Positions 4,642 through 11,480 of a stretch of DNA of 11,749 nt are shown piece by piece. The stretch comes from an uncultured Peptococcaceae bacterium (GTDB taxonomy: Bacteria > Bacillota > Peptococcia > Peptococcales > Peptococcaceae): positions 1 through 11,749 of the forward strand of contig CAMFFG010000013.1 of NCBI GenBank assembly GCA_945949655.1. The letters are read 5' to 3'. The position numbers and the translations under genes are program-made. The stretch's first letter is position 1, and each line of letters starts with the position of its first letter. The notes under the pieces were generated by a model. That model ran no database searches. It saw only the letters and a list, made by a program, of their open reading frames with translations, and had not been told where the DNA came from.

Positions 4642-5986
4642 ACAGCCCGGCAGCCGTGAACTGGCGTTAAAAATTTTATATCAGATTAACGAAGAAGGGG
4701 CTTATGCTAATCTGGCTTTAGATAAAGCCCTTTTTTCATGTAGCGGATTAGATCCGCGGGATAAAGGGCTGATCACGGAGATCGTGTACGGCTCTGTCAA
4801 AAACAAAGGCAAGCTGGATTTTGTGCTGAACCAGTTTGCCAGCACAAAAGTGAAAAAAATGGATCGCTGGACCCGCAACATTTTACGGATGGCACTGTAT
4901 CAGATCCTGTTTCTGGATAAGATTCCTCCTTCAGCGGCAGTCAACGAAGCCGTAAAACTGGCCAAACGCTACGGCCATGTGGACAAATTTGTCAACGCGG
5001 TGCTGCGTAATATTCTGCGGGGCATGGAGCAGATCACCTGGCCAGACCGGGAGAAGGATTCGGTGCAGTACTTGATGGTGCAGTATTCTTTTCCCCAATG
5101 GATGGTGGAACGGTTTATCCGGCAGTATGGGGTGGAACAGGCCGAACAGCTTTGCAGTTGGTACAACCGGCCTGCGCCGTTGTGGATCCGCGCCAACACC
5201 TTAAAGACAACGCGGCAGGCATTAAAACAGCAGTTGGAGCAAGCCGGGCTTGTGGTGCAGGAGAGCCGTTATACGTTGGAAGGCTTAAAAATAGAAACAG
5301 CGGTGAATCTGCATCAGCTGGAGGCCTTTCAGCAGGGTCTGTTTACCGTTCAGGATGAAAGTTCTATGCTGGTGGCTTTAGCCGCAGAGCCCGCTCCGGG
5401 TCAGCGGGTGCTGGATGTGTGCAGTGCGCCCGGCGGCAAGACCACCCACATGGCACAGCTGATGAAAAACACTGGAACCATCTATGCCTGCGACATCCAT
5501 GCCCATAGGCTGGAGCTGATTGAGGAAAACTGTAAGCGGCTTGGCATTCAGAATGTGGAAACGGTGCAGCAGGACGGTACACGTTTAACAGAACGCTGGC
5601 AGCAGCCCTTTGATGTGGTGCTGTGTGATGTGCCTTGCTCCGGTCTTGGTGTGCTGGGGCGGCGGCCCGATGCCCGCTGGGCCAAAGAATCGGAGGATAT
5701 TGCCAGTCTGTGCAGTGTGCAGCGGCAGATTCTGGAGCAAGCCGCACTGCTGGTAGCACCCGGCGGCACTCTGATCTACAGTACCTGCACCATCACCCCG
5801 GAGGAAAACGAGCAGATGGTGCGGCAGTTTTTAGCGCAGCACGGCCAGTTCATGCTGGATGAAACGCTGCCCGACTGCTGGCTCAACATGGACAAAGGCA
5901 AGGATGGCTATGTGCAGTTTTTGCCTTTTGCCGATGACATGGACGGATTTTTTATCGCACGGATGGTGCGCAGGGAGGAAGCATAA
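4631..5986 (+). CDS. rsmB: 16S rRNA (cytosine-967-C5) methyltransferase RsmB
   Basis: RsmB makes m5C967 in 16S rRNA using S-adenosylmethionine. The 451-residue protein has the expected two parts: a NusB-like RNA-binding domain (about 5-130) and a Rossmann methyltransferase domain. Motif I (SAM binding) is VLDVCSAPGGKT at 260-271. Motif IV is DVPCSGLG with Cys336. The catalytic nucleophile is Cys386 in YSTCTITPEEN. Two adjacent ATGs are possible, 4631 and 4634. GGGAGGG at 4623-4629 is spaced better for the second, but the difference is one residue. The start overlaps the peptidase stop by 8-11 nt, and the stop overlaps the rlmN start (TAATG), so translation of the three genes is probably coupled. 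Confidence 0.97.
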   Translation: MMTKQPGSRELALKILYQINEEGAYANLALDKALFSCSGLDPRDKGLITEIVYGSVKNKGKLDFVLNQFASTKVKKMDRWTRNILRMALYQILFLDKIPPSAAVNEAVKLAKRYGHVDKFVNAVLRNILRGMEQITWPDREKDSVQYLMVQYSFPQWMVERFIRQYGVEQAEQLCSWYNRPAPLWIRANTLKTTRQALKQQLEQAGLVVQESRYTLEGLKIETAVNLHQLEAFQQGLFTVQDESSMLVALAAEPAPGQRVLDVCSAPGGKTTHMAQLMKNTGTIYACDIHAHRLELIEENCKRLGIQNVETVQQDGTRLTERWQQPFDVVLCDVPCSGLGVLGRRPDARWAKESEDIASLCSVQRQILEQAALLVAPGGTLIYSTCTITPEENEQMVRQFLAQHGQFMLDETLPDCWLNMDKGKDGYVQFLPFADDMDGFFIARMVRREEA

Positions 5987-7053
5987 TGGAACAGCAGGAT
6001 TTACGTAGCATGGACCTGGCGGAAATGACCAGCCTATTGAAAGAACTGGGACAGCCGGCCTTTCGCGCCAGGCAGCTGTTTACCTGGGTGCATCAGAAAC
6101 AGGTCAGCCAGTTGGCCCAGATGCATAATTTGGGCCGGCAGCTGCTAGAACAGCTGGAACAGCGCTGTCAGCCCACAGCATTTCAGCTGGAACGCAAACA
6201 GGTGTCTGCTGACGGCACCGAGAAATTTCTGTTCCGGCTGGCCGACGGTAACTATATCGAATGTGTGCTGATGCGCTACCGGGGCGATCTGAGCAAACAG
6301 CGCAATACACTGTGCATCTCCAGCCAGGTGGGCTGTGCCATGGGGTGCACCTTCTGCGCCACCGGGCAGAGCGGCTTTGTGCGCAATCTGACAGCCGGGG
6401 AGATCATCAGTCAGGTGTATGAGGTAAACCGTATCCTGCAGGAAGAAGGTGACGCAATGCCAGTGGGTAATGTTGTGTTTATGGGTATGGGAGAGCCGCT
6501 GCTCAATTTGTCTGCCGTGTTAAAAACCATCAGCCTGTTGAATGACCCGCAGGGGCAGAAGATGGGCATTCGCCGTATGACAGTGTCCACCTGCGGTGTT
6601 GTGCCGAAATTGCTGGAACTGGCAGATCAGAAGCTGGATGTGGTGCTGGCTGTTTCCTTGCATGCCCCCAACGATAAACAGCGCTCCAGTGTGATGCCCG
6701 TTAACCGCCAGTATCCCTTAGAACAGCTGATGGCCGCCTGCCGGTATTATCAGCAGCAGACTGGAAACCGTATTTCCTTTGAATATGCACTGATCACTGG
6801 TTTTAACGACCAGCCTCAGCATGTGCAGCAGTTAAAACAGCTTTTAAAAGGTCTGGACTGCCATCTCAATATCATTCCGGTCAATCCGGTAGCTAACACC
6901 GCCCAGTTTGGTCGGCCAGACAAAAAACAGGTGGCAGCCTTTGTAGAAGCACTCCAGCAGGCCGGGCTGAAAGCCAGCGTGCTGGAAGAAAAAGGGACCG
7001 ACATCGACGGTGCCTGTGGACAGTTGCGGGGCAAAGTACTGCGGGAGAAATAA
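5986..7053 (+). CDS. rlmN: Dual-specificity RNA methyltransferase RlmN (23S rRNA/tRNA m2A)
   Basis: RlmN is a radical SAM enzyme that methylates C2 of A2503 in 23S rRNA and A37 in some tRNAs. The protein has 355 residues, normal for the family. The [4Fe-4S] motif CAMGCTFC is at Cys117, Cys121 and Cys124. GMGEP follows for SAM binding. The methyl-carrying cysteine is Cys344 in DIDGACGQLRG near the C-terminus. The ATG overlaps the rsmB stop by one base (TAATG), with GGAGG upstream. It is the last gene of this operon here. In many Bacillota rlmN is followed by stp, prkC and rsgA, but here a non-coding region and metal-related GTPases follow. Confidence 0.98.
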   Translation: MEQQDLRSMDLAEMTSLLKELGQPAFRARQLFTWVHQKQVSQLAQMHNLGRQLLEQLEQRCQPTAFQLERKQVSADGTEKFLFRLADGNYIECVLMRYRGDLSKQRNTLCISSQVGCAMGCTFCATGQSGFVRNLTAGEIISQVYEVNRILQEEGDAMPVGNVVFMGMGEPLLNLSAVLKTISLLNDPQGQKMGIRRMTVSTCGVVPKLLELADQKLDVVLAVSLHAPNDKQRSSVMPVNRQYPLEQLMAACRYYQQQTGNRISFEYALITGFNDQPQHVQQLKQLLKGLDCHLNIIPVNPVANTAQFGRPDKKQVAAFVEALQQAGLKASVLEEKGTDIDGACGQLRGKVLREK

Positions 7054-7056
7054 ATT

Positions 7057-7085
7057 GGAGATCATACCGATGCGGTACAGTCTCT
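7057..7085 (+). other. RNA hairpin just after rlmN
   Basis: GGAGA (7057-7061) can pair with TCTCT (7081-7085), enclosing a perfect TACCG/CGGTA stem (7065-7069 with 7073-7077) around a 3-base loop. It starts three bases after the rlmN stop. No T-run follows, so it is not a standard terminator; it may protect the mRNA 3' end or be part of the following structured region. CATACC at 7063-7068 is complementary to GGTATG at 7295-7300 in the downstream terminator, which would allow an alternative fold. Confidence 0.45.
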
Positions 7086-7280
7086 GTAGATACTTAACGA
7101 ATCCGTTTTTTGGATTAGTCTATAGTTAGAAAAGTGAGTAGCTATGATGCATTGGCGTGCAGCTGTAAACGGTTTACTTCCCAGTGATTGAACTACTCGC
7201 CAATCGGGTCAGGATTGAGGCGGGCAGTCTTTCTATTTTAAGACAAAAACCTTGCTACTTGCGCAGCAAGGTGATAACTA

Positions 7281-7295
7281 TAGTAATAATTACGG
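7281..7295. promoter_or_regulatory. Candidate Zur operator
   Basis: TAGTAATAATTACGG matches the Bacillus subtilis Zur 7-1-7 box TCGTAATNATTACGA at 12 of 14 specified positions and contains the perfect palindrome GTAATAATTAC. Zur represses zinc-uptake and COG0523 GTPase genes such as yciC when zinc is plentiful. Here the site lies 253 bases before a COG0523 GTPase gene. Caution: it overlaps the 3' arm of the RNA closing stem and touches the 5' arm of the terminator, so part of the palindrome may exist for RNA pairing. Confidence 0.5.
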
Positions 7296-7325
7296 GTATG
7301 CCCTGATCTGGTGCATGCCTTTTTT
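7295..7325 (+). terminator. Rho-independent terminator
   Basis: GGTATGC (7295-7301) pairs with GCATGCC (7313-7319), seven pairs including one G-T, around an 11-base loop. Six T residues follow at 7320-7325. It ends the structured RNA candidate, the rlmN transcript, or both. Confidence 0.75.
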
Positions 7326-7548
7326 GTATTTAATCTGATAATCTGACAAAATCTCAAGTCCTTTGCCCCTTTCGGCGACGGGAGATTGAAAGATTCTCAG
7401 AGCTTAAAAAAAAGTGAAAAACATTGCTCGATGGGCCTTTACGCTCAATTTTTCCGATAAAAAGAGGGAGAACGGCCCTTTCTGTTGAAACTAAAGATGG
7501 AAAAATTTTTAGAGATAAGACTCTATTTCAGAAAGAGGCGGAGATATT
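7326..7548 (+). promoter_or_regulatory. AT-rich leader region of the GTPase operon
   Basis: I see no gene here. The region holds a perfect tandem octamer TAATCTGA twice (7331-7346). A stem AATCTC/GAGATT (7350-7355 with 7382-7387) has inner GTC/GAC and GCC/GGC pairs. A second stem GGGCC/GGCCC (7433-7437 with 7474-7478) encloses CTC-aa-TTTTT paired with AAAAA-GAG. A weak sigma-A-like promoter is possible: TTGAAA at 7485-7490, 17-base spacer, TTTAGA at 7508-7513. The ribosome binding site GAGGCGGAG lies just before ATG 7549. These stems suggest a regulated or stabilised 5' leader, but no known riboswitch core is recognised. Confidence 0.4.
7331..7346. repeat. Tandem 8-bp direct repeat
   Basis: TAATCTGATAATCTGA is two exact copies of TAATCTGA, one DNA helical turn or less apart, directly after the terminator. 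It could be a pair of half-sites for a regulator, or chance in AT-rich DNA. Confidence 0.5.
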
Positions 7549-8745
7549 ATGGTTAAGATCGATATTATTTCAGGATTTTTAGGTGCGGGCAAGACCACGC
7601 TGATCCAGAAGCTGTTAAAGGAGGCGTTGGCCGACAGCAAGGTGGTGCTGATCGAAAATGAATTTGGCGAGATCGGCATTGACGGTGGATTTCTGCAGGA
7701 AGCGGGCGTGGAGATTCGGGAGATGAACTCGGGCTGTATCTGCTGCTCGCTGGTGGGTGACTTTAAAACATCACTGCAGGAGGTACTGCAGACCTACGCG
7801 CCGGAACGGATTATCATTGAGCCATCGGGTGTGGGCAAGCTGTCTGAGGTGGTGCAGGCTGTGGCTAGCGCCGGTGATGGGGCCCATGAGATCGCTATTT
7901 CCGGCAAGGTGACCGTGGTGGATGTGAACAAATGCAAAATGTATCTGAAAAACTTCGGTGAGTTCTTCCGCAATCAGGTGGAGGAGGCCGATACCATTCT
8001 GCTGAGCCGCACCGGCTCCGCCAGTGCCGATAAGATCCAAAAAGCAGTGGATCTGCTGCGACAGCACAATGATCATGCGGTTATTGTGACAACGCCGTGG
8101 GATCAGCTGGACGGCAGAGATCTGCTGCAGGAAATGGAGCGGACCACCACCATGGCCGATGAACTGCTGGCCGAAGTACAGCATGCCCATGAACAGGATC
8201 ATGCCGAAGCGGAACATCATCACGAACATGGTGAACACTGCAACTGTGGTCATCACCATGACCATGACGAACACTGCCATGAGGAACACGATCACCATCA
8301 TGACCACGATGAACACTGCCATGAGGGACATGACCATCATCATGAACATGACGAACACTGCAGTTGCGGACATGATCACGAACACGAACACGAACATGAA
8401 CATCACCATCACGACCATGCCCATGGTGAAGCCTGCAGCTGCGGACAAGACCATCATGCCGACGAAGTGTTTGCCAGCTGGGGCATGGAGACACCGGCTG
8501 TGTACAATGCCGATGCCCTGCGGCAGATGCTGGTTGCCTTAGAACAGCAGGATACCTACGGTATGGTGTTGCGGGCCAAAGGCATGCTGCCGGCAGCGGA
8601 TGGTACCTGGACCTATTTTGACTATGTACCCGGCGAGCTGGAACTGCGTCCGGGAAAACCGGCTGTCACCGGTAAAATCTGTGTCATTGGCTCCGGCCTC
8701 AGGCAGGATCAGCTGCAGCAGCTGTTTCAGGCAGAACGGCGGTGA
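7549..8745 (+). CDS. COG0523 (CobW/YciC-like) GTPase with long His/Cys-rich metal-binding insertion
   Basis: This is a G3E-family P-loop GTPase, a group that includes zinc metallochaperones (YciC/ZigA) and CobW. In the 398-residue protein, Walker A GFLGAGKT is at 9-16, the ENEFGEIGID switch region at 36-45, and the metal-binding CICC at 63-66 in NSGCICCSL. Walker B-like EPSG is at 91-94. The usual NKxD guanine motif is replaced by SRTG at 153-156. Residues 212-303 form a linker with about 40 His and 8 Cys, including three CxCG motifs. The CobW C-terminal domain follows (about 308-395). The ATG has GAGGCGGAG upstream. TGA ends it six bases before the next GTPase. A zinc role is the best reading, given the Zur-like box upstream and the carbonic anhydrase downstream. 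Nickel or cobalt binding by the His-rich part cannot be excluded. Confidence 0.93.
   Translation: MVKIDIISGFLGAGKTTLIQKLLKEALADSKVVLIENEFGEIGIDGGFLQEAGVEIREMNSGCICCSLVGDFKTSLQEVLQTYAPERIIIEPSGVGKLSEVVQAVASAGDGAHEIAISGKVTVVDVNKCKMYLKNFGEFFRNQVEEADTILLSRTGSASADKIQKAVDLLRQHNDHAVIVTTPWDQLDGRDLLQEMERTTTMADELLAEVQHAHEQDHAEAEHHHEHGEHCNCGHHHDHDEHCHEEHDHHHDHDEHCHEGHDHHHEHDEHCSCGHDHEHEHEHEHHHHDHAHGEACSCGQDHHADEVFASWGMETPAVYNADALRQMLVALEQQDTYGMVLRAKGMLPAADGTWTYFDYVPGELELRPGKPAVTGKICVIGSGLRQDQLQQLFQAERR
8182..8457 (+). repeat. His-rich coding repeat (14-residue units)
   Basis: This stretch encodes residues 212-303 of the GTPase. Its core is about three to four tandem units of 42 nt, such as HDHDEHCHEEHDHH, HDHDEHCHEGHDHH and HEHDEHCSCGHDHE, preceded by a partial unit HEHGEHCNCGHH. 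A run of alternating His-Glu and HHHH follows. The DNA copies differ in places, so expansion is not only very recent. The long open frames on both strands here are by-products of the CAT/GAC/GAA composition. Confidence 0.85.
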
Positions 8746-8751
8746 GCGGCC

Positions 8752-9684
8752 ATGACCTTACCGGTGTATTTTATCAACGGTTTTCTGGAAAGCGGCAAGA
8801 CCGAGTTTATCAACTTTACCATTGAAGAAGATTACTTTAAGATCGACGAGTTGACCCTGATCATCGTCTGTGAGGAGGGGGAAGTGGATTACGAGGAAGA
8901 AGCGCTGAAAAACGGCCATGCAGTGCTGGAACGGCTGAACGAGGAGACCGACTTCACCATCGCCCGGCTGACCGCTCTGGAGCAGAAATACCATCCTGAG
9001 CGCATCATCATCGAGTACAATGGCATGTGGAATCCCAAGGATATTCTGCTGCCCCGCACCTGGCACATGGAAGAGCAGATCACTCTGATTGACGCCACCA
9101 CCTTTCCGGTTTACTATGCCAATATGAAATCCCGCATAGCCGAAATGGTGCGCAACGCTGATGTGGTGGTGTTCAACCGCTGTGACGGCGTGGAGGATCT
9201 GCCCAGCTTCCGCCGCAGCATTCGGGCGGTCAATCAGTTTGCCGATATTATTTTTGAGGATTCCTATGGTGAGATAGAAGAGTTAGGCGACGAGGATCTG
9301 CCCTACGATATCAACAGCGACCACATTGTGCTGGAGGACAACACTTATGCCACCTGGTATCTGGACGCTATGGAGCGCCCCGACCGTTATGTGGGAAAAA
9401 CTATCGAATTTACCGGCATGGTCATGCACGGTGAGGAATATCCGCCGGGGTGGTTTATTCCGGGCCGCATTGCCATGGTGTGCTGCGAAAAAGACGTGGC
9501 TTTTCTGGGCTATCCCTGCCGCTGGGACGACGAGTGTGACATGCGGGATCAGCAGTGGGTGCAGGTGACAGCCCGCTTTGACCTGGCGGAATGGTTTGAA
9601 TATGAAGGCGAAGGCCCTGTGCTGTATGTGGATAGGGTAGAGCGGTGCCAGCCACCGGAACAGCTGGTCATCAATGTAAACTAG
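8752..9684 (+). CDS. Diverged CobW-like GTPase fused to a TIGR03943/YcgQ-like C-terminal domain
   Basis: This 310-residue protein starts like a G3E GTPase, with Walker A GFLESGKT at 10-17 and a guanine motif NRCD at 142-145. The switch region is altered (CEEGEVDYEE in place of ENEFGE), and the metal-binding CxCC motif is absent. From about residue 210 to 302 the sequence (YVGKTIEFTGMV, FIPGRIAMVCCEKD with Cys244-Cys245, WVQVTARFD, PVLYVDRVE) resembles the C-terminal part of TIGR03943/YcgQ proteins. These are partners of the DUF318 permeases found near COG0523 genes. That match is from memory of the pattern and needs a profile search. No DUF318 permease is present here. The gene starts six bases after the first GTPase and is surely co-transcribed. 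It may be a partner or regulator of that GTPase rather than a metal carrier itself. Confidence 0.82.
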   Translation: MTLPVYFINGFLESGKTEFINFTIEEDYFKIDELTLIIVCEEGEVDYEEEALKNGHAVLERLNEETDFTIARLTALEQKYHPERIIIEYNGMWNPKDILLPRTWHMEEQITLIDATTFPVYYANMKSRIAEMVRNADVVVFNRCDGVEDLPSFRRSIRAVNQFADIIFEDSYGEIEELGDEDLPYDINSDHIVLEDNTYATWYLDAMERPDRYVGKTIEFTGMVMHGEEYPPGWFIPGRIAMVCCEKDVAFLGYPCRWDDECDMRDQQWVQVTARFDLAEWFEYEGEGPVLYVDRVERCQPPEQLVINVN

Positions 9685-9715
9685 AAGACAGATACGGGAG
9701 AGGAGCGGCCTGAAC

Positions 9716-10264
9716 ATGGGTGAGATGATTGAATCTTTTTTGGCATATAACGAAAAATTTGTGGCGGAAAAGCAGTACGAGCAGTACGCCACTAGCAAGT
9801 ATCCCGACCGCAATGTGGCCATCGTGGCCTGCATGGATACCCGGCTCACCGAACTGCTGCCAGCGGCGCTGGGTATTAAAAACGGCGATGTGAAGCTGAT
9901 CAAAAACGCCGGCGGCGTGGTGATGGCCCCCTTTGGCAGTGTGATGCGCAGCCTTTTAGTGGCGGTGTATGAGCTGAGCGTCACTGAGATCATGATTATC
10001 GGCCACTACGACTGCGGCGTGCAGCACATGGACGGTGAGCTAATGCTGCAGCACATGAAGCAGCGGGGCATCGACCAGCGCAGCATTGATTTTCTGGATT
10101 ACTGTGGATTCAATGTAAAAGAGTGGTTGACCGGCTTCTCCTGTGTGCAGGAGGCGGTGCGCAAGAGCGTAGAGCTGGTGCGGGATCATCCGCTGATCCC
10201 TGCCGACATTACCGTGGAGGGATTTCTGATGGATCCGGTTACGGGGCGGGTGGAGCGGATATAA
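9716..10264 (+). CDS. Beta-class carbonic anhydrase
   Basis: This is a zinc enzyme that interconverts CO2 and bicarbonate. The 182-residue protein is of the small bacterial/archaeal beta class, like B. subtilis YvdA. The ligands and catalytic pair are all visible: Cys39, Asp41 and Arg43 in ACMDTRL, then His97 and Cys100 in GHYDCGV. KNAGG at 63-67 is also typical. The ATG at 9716 has GGAGAGGAG about ten bases upstream. It lies 31 nt after the second GTPase and probably belongs to the same transcript. This places a zinc-dependent enzyme directly behind two putative zinc-handling GTPases. No terminator is seen after it. Confidence 0.94.
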   Translation: MGEMIESFLAYNEKFVAEKQYEQYATSKYPDRNVAIVACMDTRLTELLPAALGIKNGDVKLIKNAGGVVMAPFGSVMRSLLVAVYELSVTEIMIIGHYDCGVQHMDGELMLQHMKQRGIDQRSIDFLDYCGFNVKEWLTGFSCVQEAVRKSVELVRDHPLIPADITVEGFLMDPVTGRVERI

Positions 10265-10550: not shown

Positions 10551-11480
10551 GTGCAGCTAAATCAGTTTAAGTTCCTGGTGGCGGTGGACCAGTACGGCTC
10601 TATTTCCCGGGCGGCGCAGGAGCTTTATATTTCTCAGTCCACAGTCAGTCTGGCGCTGATTAATCTGGAGGAGGAACTGGGTGTGACCATTTTAAACCGC
10701 AGCAAACGAGGCGTTTCTTTTACTGCGGAGGGAAAAATGATTCTGGCCCGGGCCAAAGCCATTATGGAAGAAGTGGAGGGCCTGCAGGCGGCCAGTTTTG
10801 ATACCCAGGAGTTGACCGGAGAAGTGCGGCTGGGAGGCAGCAGTCATTTCTGCATGAATATCATCACTGATATGATGATTCAGATGAAGCGGCAGTATCC
10901 GGGCATCTGTATCATGACCCAGCGACAGCCGGTGAAAGATGTGATCAAGGCTGTGGCGCAGAAAGAACTGGATCTGGGCTTTATCAATTTCAATGCACTG
11001 AATGAAACCGATGTTAGAAATGAATTTCGCCGTTATCATTTGGAGTATACACCTATTTTTCAGGACAGAATGCGGATCTGCGTGGGCAGCAATCATCCGC
11101 TGTGTGGAAAGGCGCAGATCGATTTTGCGGAGTTGTTGCAATATGATCTAGTGTCGCTGGCTTTTAAGATGGATGAGTTCACCTACAATTATTTCAGGCA
11201 GCGGGGTTATCAGAGGGAGCCTATTTCCATCAATGATATTGCCAATCTGCGCAAATATACTGCCAGTCTGGACTGCCTGATGATTATGCCGGAAAAAGAG
11301 ATCGAGAATAGCAATAAAACCTACTGTACCAAAATCCACGGACTGGATGTACCGGAATTTGACGTGGCAGTATCGGTGGGCTGGCTGCATCACGGCGATC
11401 ATACTATGACCTTGCTGGAGCAGAAGGTGGTTGAACTGCTGGAGCGGGAGTGTCAGCGCTATCAGGATCTGAATAGCTGA
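10551..11480 (+). CDS. LysR-family transcriptional regulator
   Basis: This is a 309-residue LysR-type regulator, the standard length. The N-terminal winged helix-turn-helix is clear at about residues 1-60 (GSISRAAQELYISQSTVSLAL at 16-36, then LEEELGVTILNR). The periplasmic-binding-protein-like effector domain spans about 90-295. The ligand cannot be told from sequence. The start is GTG 10551, with AGGGGG at 10538-10543 seven bases upstream. LysR genes often regulate a divergent neighbour, but here both upstream genes run the same way and the downstream gene is convergent, so the target is unclear. The CO2 or metal genes upstream and the flavoprotein downstream are both possible. Confidence 0.95.
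   Translation: MQLNQFKFLVAVDQYGSISRAAQELYISQSTVSLALINLEEELGVTILNRSKRGVSFTAEGKMILARAKAIMEEVEGLQAASFDTQELTGEVRLGGSSHFCMNIITDMMIQMKRQYPGICIMTQRQPVKDVIKAVAQKELDLGFINFNALNETDVRNEFRRYHLEYTPIFQDRMRICVGSNHPLCGKAQIDFAELLQYDLVSLAFKMDEFTYNYFRQRGYQREPISINDIANLRKYTASLDCLMIMPEKEIENSNKTYCTKIHGLDVPEFDVAVSVGWLHHGDHTMTLLEQKVVELLERECQRYQDLNS

Follow-up and report, generated by a model that had tools for sequence, protein, structure and literature searches.

What kind of element occupies the gene-free stretch at positions 7054-7548 of the window, by which we mean the whole 11,749-nucleotide stretch of DNA analysed here? It is flanked by what we take, from reading the translations, to be rlmN (5986-7053) and a CobW-type GTPase gene (7549-8745). 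An earlier note had proposed that a perfect 9-bp stem closes a multi-branched structured RNA here, followed by its own terminator. Inspection of the forward strand confirms the stem itself, with CTATAGTTA at 7120-7128 pairing at nine of nine positions with TAACTATAG at 7275-7283, and local hairpins are present between its arms. Segment 7100-7330 is predicted to fold more stably than shuffled versions of itself (z -3.12; 1/200 as good). A perfect stem of at least 9 bp with arms 100-220 nt apart arises in 35 of 2000 dinucleotide shuffles of 7114-7325. The closing stem is not conserved: only 4-6 of the nine positions pair in eight homologous copies, and we rejected the multi-branched fold on this ground. 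The 5' arm lies in a promoter or start region just upstream of the RNA described below, and the 3' arm falls inside the relic of a toxin gene, where the relatives have coding sequence.

The conserved unit is shorter than the feature first described. An alignment of ten copies places it at about 7129-7240 on the forward strand, where it consists of a 5' hairpin and a terminator hairpin; the idea of a non-coding RNA gene with a terminator looks right. We annotate this segment as an antitoxin-type RNA of about 110 nt, for which the covariance model R1 gives 84.6 bits at 7129-7236, a score to be read with the window being one of the ten training rows of R1; blastn supports the RNA independently of the model. 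The 5' hairpin (7136-7180) is seen in alignments A1 and A4, and its inner helix covaries; a toxin mRNA would end in the complement of this hairpin. Helices 4 and 5 of A4 correspond to the RNA's terminator hairpin with its T-rich tail (7191-7239). A terminator-like hairpin with a T run does fold at 7294-7325, as the note had it, but it is a separate element with no counterpart in nine aligned relatives; by alignment, the RNA's own terminator is the hairpin at about 7191-7239.

Across the 100 genomes searched by blastn, our own (G000) included, relatives were found in two. The own genome carries a second copy on contig C65 at 72% identity, and a genome of the same genus, G004, gave six matches at 71-78%. 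Contig C17 of G004 holds six tandem copies with a period of 377-385 nt. These units of about 380 nt (L009:8590-10850) directly follow a gene that is presumably queC-like; units 4 and 5 hardly differ, with 98% identity over 300 nt, and the terminator hairpin differs from unit to unit with compensating changes.

Covariation among homologues, one of the checks named in the earlier note, is present. In A4, which comprises 18 copies (17 distinct) fitted to the model, 93.1% of cells are paired and 14 of 30 pairs show changes on both sides; helix 4 accounts for both-side changes in seven of its 12 pairs. The covariation score is 0.365 against 0.218 in shuffles and 0.08-0.12 in slid controls. Four of five covariation measures exceed all 500 shuffles, whereas for the fifth, the number of further pair types, 293 of the 500 shuffles do as well. 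RNAalifold applied to a free MAFFT alignment of ten copies likewise finds double changes in 9 of 30 pairs. Folding of eight other copies gives z-values of -3.7 to -5.6 for the core.

No Rfam family reaches its gathering score in the window, in 14 related loci or in a further set of nine, which bears out the note's failure to recognise a family. The weak matches CRISPR-DR45, GibS and GNAS-AS1_3 (E up to 10) were rejected as far below gathering; all three lie on the reverse strand, beyond or merely touching the 3' end of the RNA. The matches listed in a search of the open PMC literature cover type I systems of Bacillus, Clostridia and other groups; among them, none describes this RNA in its title or the beginning of its abstract, supplementary tables lying outside that search. 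We regard the RNA family as real and as belonging to a kind already known, with no match in Rfam.

Its distribution was followed with two covariance models. R1, built from ten sequences and applied to 46 genomes of the class, has matches in nine of them at E<=0.01; of its 13 matches in G004, one is the opposite strand of another. R2, built from 30 sequences after removal of L033, L075 and L076 (judged false R1 matches), L038 (an insertion) and L046 (score too low), finds matches in 15 of the 46. In the phylum, R2 matches 42 of 398 sampled genomes at E<=0.001, false positives included. On visual inspection of the 22 properly cut phylum loci (L112 was set aside for a wrong cut), the 5' motif is recognisable in about 13; five of the loci pass the ORF filter. 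Nine resemble plain terminators or T-box ends (L100, L102, L105, L108, L109, L113, L116, L117 and L118), and 42 of 398 is therefore an upper bound.

The opposite strand of these loci shows what the RNA accompanies. In intact copies it carries a ribosome site and, after it, an ORF that runs towards the RNA, for example MTYEFYMAVIATLTLLVAVIALLRKK. A toxin alignment searched against 21 genomes of the order recovers 12 such ORFs in G004, one in G000 and a partial, weak match in G006; the ORF at the C65 copy of G000 is intact. In the class, 28 of 42 R2 matches face a hydrophobic mini-ORF that has a ribosome site and is convergent with the RNA; of 554 places picked at random in these loci, 10 do. 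Among the 28 are 18 of the 25 training rows and 10 of the 17 matches outside training. These 42 were examined from 47 listed, three matches of G024 and the matches on G003 C44 and G004 C71 being left out. Fourteen of the 42 have no ORF under the criterion, two of which (G004 C34 and one copy on G004 C38) do have a frame of the Hol_Tox type.

Several copies show peculiarities at the start of the toxin frame. Between ribosome site and start codon, the G004 C34 locus (L090:1470-1505) and one Hol_Tox copy of C38 (L051) have hairpin-like segments that resemble each other (CCCCACC...GTGGGG); these may be inserts by which the start is silenced or its spacing altered. At the same C38 locus, units with array-type toxins alternate with units bearing Hol_Tox-type toxins. 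In L040 (G005 C35) the toxin-like frame opposite the RNA starts with ATA where relatives have ATG, perhaps a silenced toxin.

A promoter scan places consensus matches for both promoters in all six array copies and in C1, and the forward promoter of intact copies reads TTGACG-17-TAGCAT/TAGTAT. Intact loci of this family have a short hydrophobic membrane-peptide ORF with a ribosome site and, judging from predicted transcript ends, a separate antisense RNA gene that has its own promoter and would overlap the toxin transcript. A small membrane peptide combined with an antisense RNA that overlaps its mRNA at the 3' end is the layout of a type I toxin-antitoxin system. We put the probability at about 0.9 that the RNA at 7129-7240 is the antitoxin half of such a locus, the toxin half having decayed in this copy. 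The toxicity of the peptide and its neutralisation by the RNA are putative activities at these loci.

Partner peptides vary among lineages. Measured against the cut-off of 23.3 for Pfam Hol_Tox (PF16935), the G004 C34 peptide scores 27.4 in the genome search, a peptide opposite the same RNA core on a viral contig (L126) scores 26.8, and a G004 C38 peptide scores 23.5 by hmmscan yet 21.2 in the genome search. Among the 19 matches listed in a Hol_Tox search of the class, five lie opposite R2 matches (G004 C34, G004 C38 twice, G000 C173 and G009 C106), C34 alone being listed above the cut-off. For the array-type and C65-type peptides, no family of Pfam (Hol_Tox included) or NCBIfam scores above its cut-off, and the array-type peptide has no PHROG match. 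Hol_Tox is thus a likeness for some peptides of this layout and not for the array-type and own-genome C65-type.

A core pattern drawn from distant relatives was found in nine IMG/VR contigs, four of which share sequence around the motif. A convergent ORF is present in eight of the nine, that of the four-contig group being only weakly hydrophobic. Searching viral contigs with the toxin alignment yielded no confirmed relative, and searching phage and plasmid records with two related loci yielded no match. On one viral contig (L121:10993 onward), a second RNA resembling the first comes straight after a copy that lacks a toxin ORF.

The closest known arrangements are txpA/RatA, bsrG/SR4, bsrE/SR5 and yonT/SR6 of Bacillus subtilis, in which an antitoxin RNA overlaps the 3' end of the mRNA for a small membrane peptide. 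RatA acts there by pairing with the 3' region of the toxin mRNA, and a double-strand RNase carries out mRNA decay in Bacillus. The likeness is one of layout description, and the two-hairpin covarying RNA described here differs. PMC6563280 describes the Bacillus subtilis type I layout, and PMC5848175 gives SR6 as 100 nt, a size like that of the antitoxin here. The CD-RCd systems of Clostridioides difficile, again compared by description, are alike in their convergent, overlapping layout, in their several copies per genome and in their occurrence in phages, as described in PMC6563280 and PMC7699646. Further type I literature comprises PMC6429828, PMC8632094 and PMC8040213.

How such a pair might work is suggested by a likeness between the two transcripts. 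In intact relatives, transcription from the forward promoter would yield an RNA about 110 nt long, which is predicted to converge with and overlap the 3' part of the hydrophobic-peptide toxin transcript; the latter would be about 263-278 nt long if the end assignments in six folded copies hold. The beginning of the toxin leader at intact loci tends to resemble that of its own antitoxin, and does so in different lineages. Similarity between cognate leader and antitoxin scores 25.5 against 17.9 for non-cognate combinations, a value reached in 0 of 10000 permutations of 14 representatives, although no more than 8 of the 14 rows have the cognate pair in first place. Predicted duplexes between leader and 3' tail behave similarly, at -44.0 kcal/mol for cognate and -34.5 kcal/mol for non-cognate combinations (0 of 20000 permutations), the cognate ranking first in only 8 of 15. 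These tests draw on 14 (similarity) and 15 (duplex) of 23 loci, array-type G004 copies being left out of both and the G000 C65 copy additionally out of the first. The shared sequence could partly reflect an old duplication, and not selection.

With a leader that begins like the antitoxin and a 3' tail complementary to the antitoxin's 5' end, the toxin mRNA could form an intramolecular fold-back. Folds were predicted for six toxin mRNAs of G004, their ends being assigned from sequence, and all six close with an 11-13 bp stem between 5' and 3' ends. On this model, the full-length toxin mRNA would be held inactive by the fold-back of its 3' tail onto the leader, and the antitoxin would pair with the same tail. 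By analogy with SR4 and RatA in Bacillus, pairing of the antitoxin with the 3' region of the toxin mRNA may lead to decay or silencing, the decay possibly by a double-strand RNase as in Bacillus. In hok/Sok-type two-step control the 3' end of the toxin mRNA pairs with its own leader, a fold that is predicted here as well. In contrast to hok/Sok, the arm that would fold back here is complementary to an antitoxin that overlaps the mRNA at its 3' side and begins with a leader-like sequence. For hok/Sok-type control, the processing of toxin mRNAs is treated in PMC11228461.

The state of the window copy differs from that of its intact relatives. Alignment with the latter reveals a weak promoter relic at 7094-7121 on the forward strand, made up of TTAACG (7094-7099), 16 nt and TAGTCT (7116-7121), and a promoter scan of 6900-7600 returns no forward-strand promoter. 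On the reverse strand, 7255-7283 retains the 3' end of the toxin, reading ...TIVITLLRK stop, with start codon, ribosome site and leader missing. The open frame at 7255-7329 has no toxin-like N-terminus, blastn similarity to the C65 copy stops at about 7279, and no mini-ORF opposite the RNA in the window passes the criterion applied to the class, nor is there an intact toxin ORF. The RNA keeps 24 of 30 model pairs, the lowest share of the 18 rows, and 19 of these are Watson-Crick, again the fewest; its tail TTTCTATTTT is interrupted as compared with most relatives. The core at 7129-7240 shows no extra stability (z -0.72; 49 of 200 shuffles as good). Since promoter, RNA pairing and toxin are all eroded, the window copy is most likely a relic, that is to say, probably a decaying orphan. 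The evidence from the family (ORF, covariation and leader likeness) would not show from this copy alone.

Retention without a toxin could also mean function, with the window RNA acting in trans, as an anti-addiction antitoxin, against the toxins of paralogous loci. Toxin-less copies do recur (the window, G004 C27, G001 C98, G005 C28, G006 C3 and also G001 C28, whose RNA has no 3' half), and the RNA of G004 C27 is well paired, with 28 of 30 pairs and 91.4 bits from models that it helped to train. The window RNA is predicted to pair with the 3' UTR of the C65 toxin at -110 kcal/mol, against a shuffled mean of -48, but common descent alone predicts strong pairing, and C65 has its own RNA at -233 kcal/mol. 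A functional RNA also sits poorly with the lowest share of pairs kept among the 18 rows, a promoter that escapes the scan and an interrupted U tract. Trans action retains some weight because other toxin-less copies exist, one of them well kept; for the window RNA we consider it unlikely. A wider proposal, which we offer as speculative and on balance rather improbable, is that of an unlisted antitoxin RNA family, phylum-wide and phage-carried, whose 5' domain copies the toxin mRNA leader, such that one complementary sequence would be toxin terminator, fold-back lock and antitoxin target at once, and whose toxin-less copies would persist because they protect in trans against paralogous or phage-borne toxins.

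Control of a neighbouring gene, by which the RNA would be a new riboswitch or other cis-regulatory RNA serving either the rlmN operon or the CobW-type GTPase operon, was suggested in the earlier note by its position between the two with a terminator at its end. The comparison of genomes speaks strongly against this. Within 1.5 kb downstream of rlmN, six of seven other genomes of the genus have neither the RNA nor the GTPase gene (one of the six offers about 130 nt only, and G003 was left out for an rlmN-like match of 40% identity), and an rlmN-linked cis-element was rejected accordingly. About 300 nt separate the RNA from the start of the GTPase gene, with another terminator-like hairpin in between. 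In the contexts examined, those of the homologues differ, mostly lying opposite mini-ORFs and with no common same-strand downstream gene, which leaves the suggested link to rlmN or to a metal GTPase very improbable. Chance stems in a gene-free region that never had an RNA function would suit the window core's ordinary stability and the frequency of long 9-bp stems in shuffles, but this reading is contradicted for the family by the homologues in the own genome and G004 and by their covarying structure, merges for the window copy with decay to a relic, and as an account in its own right deserves next to no credence.

With the antitoxin reading, a suspected riboswitch is replaced by a concrete, testable gene pair. 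Since the RNA has a covariance model and no Rfam match, very short unannotated toxin genes become findable through their RNAs. The tandem arrays with their compensated terminator changes form a natural set for asking how near-identical antitoxins stay specific, and they also bear on whether toxin-less RNA copies are debris or protection.

Two further observations concern the neighbouring genes. Over 7549-10264 and 10551-11480, the window carries two adjacent genes that we take from their translations to be CobW-type GTPases, the first with a long stretch rich in His, Asp, Glu and Cys, followed by a presumably carbonic-anhydrase-like gene and then a presumed LysR-like regulator. In the leader of the first CobW-type gene (7477-7538), CCTTTCTGTTGAAA at 7477 and TTTCAGAAAGAGG at 7526 are largely complementary and could form a hairpin just 5' of the ribosome site.
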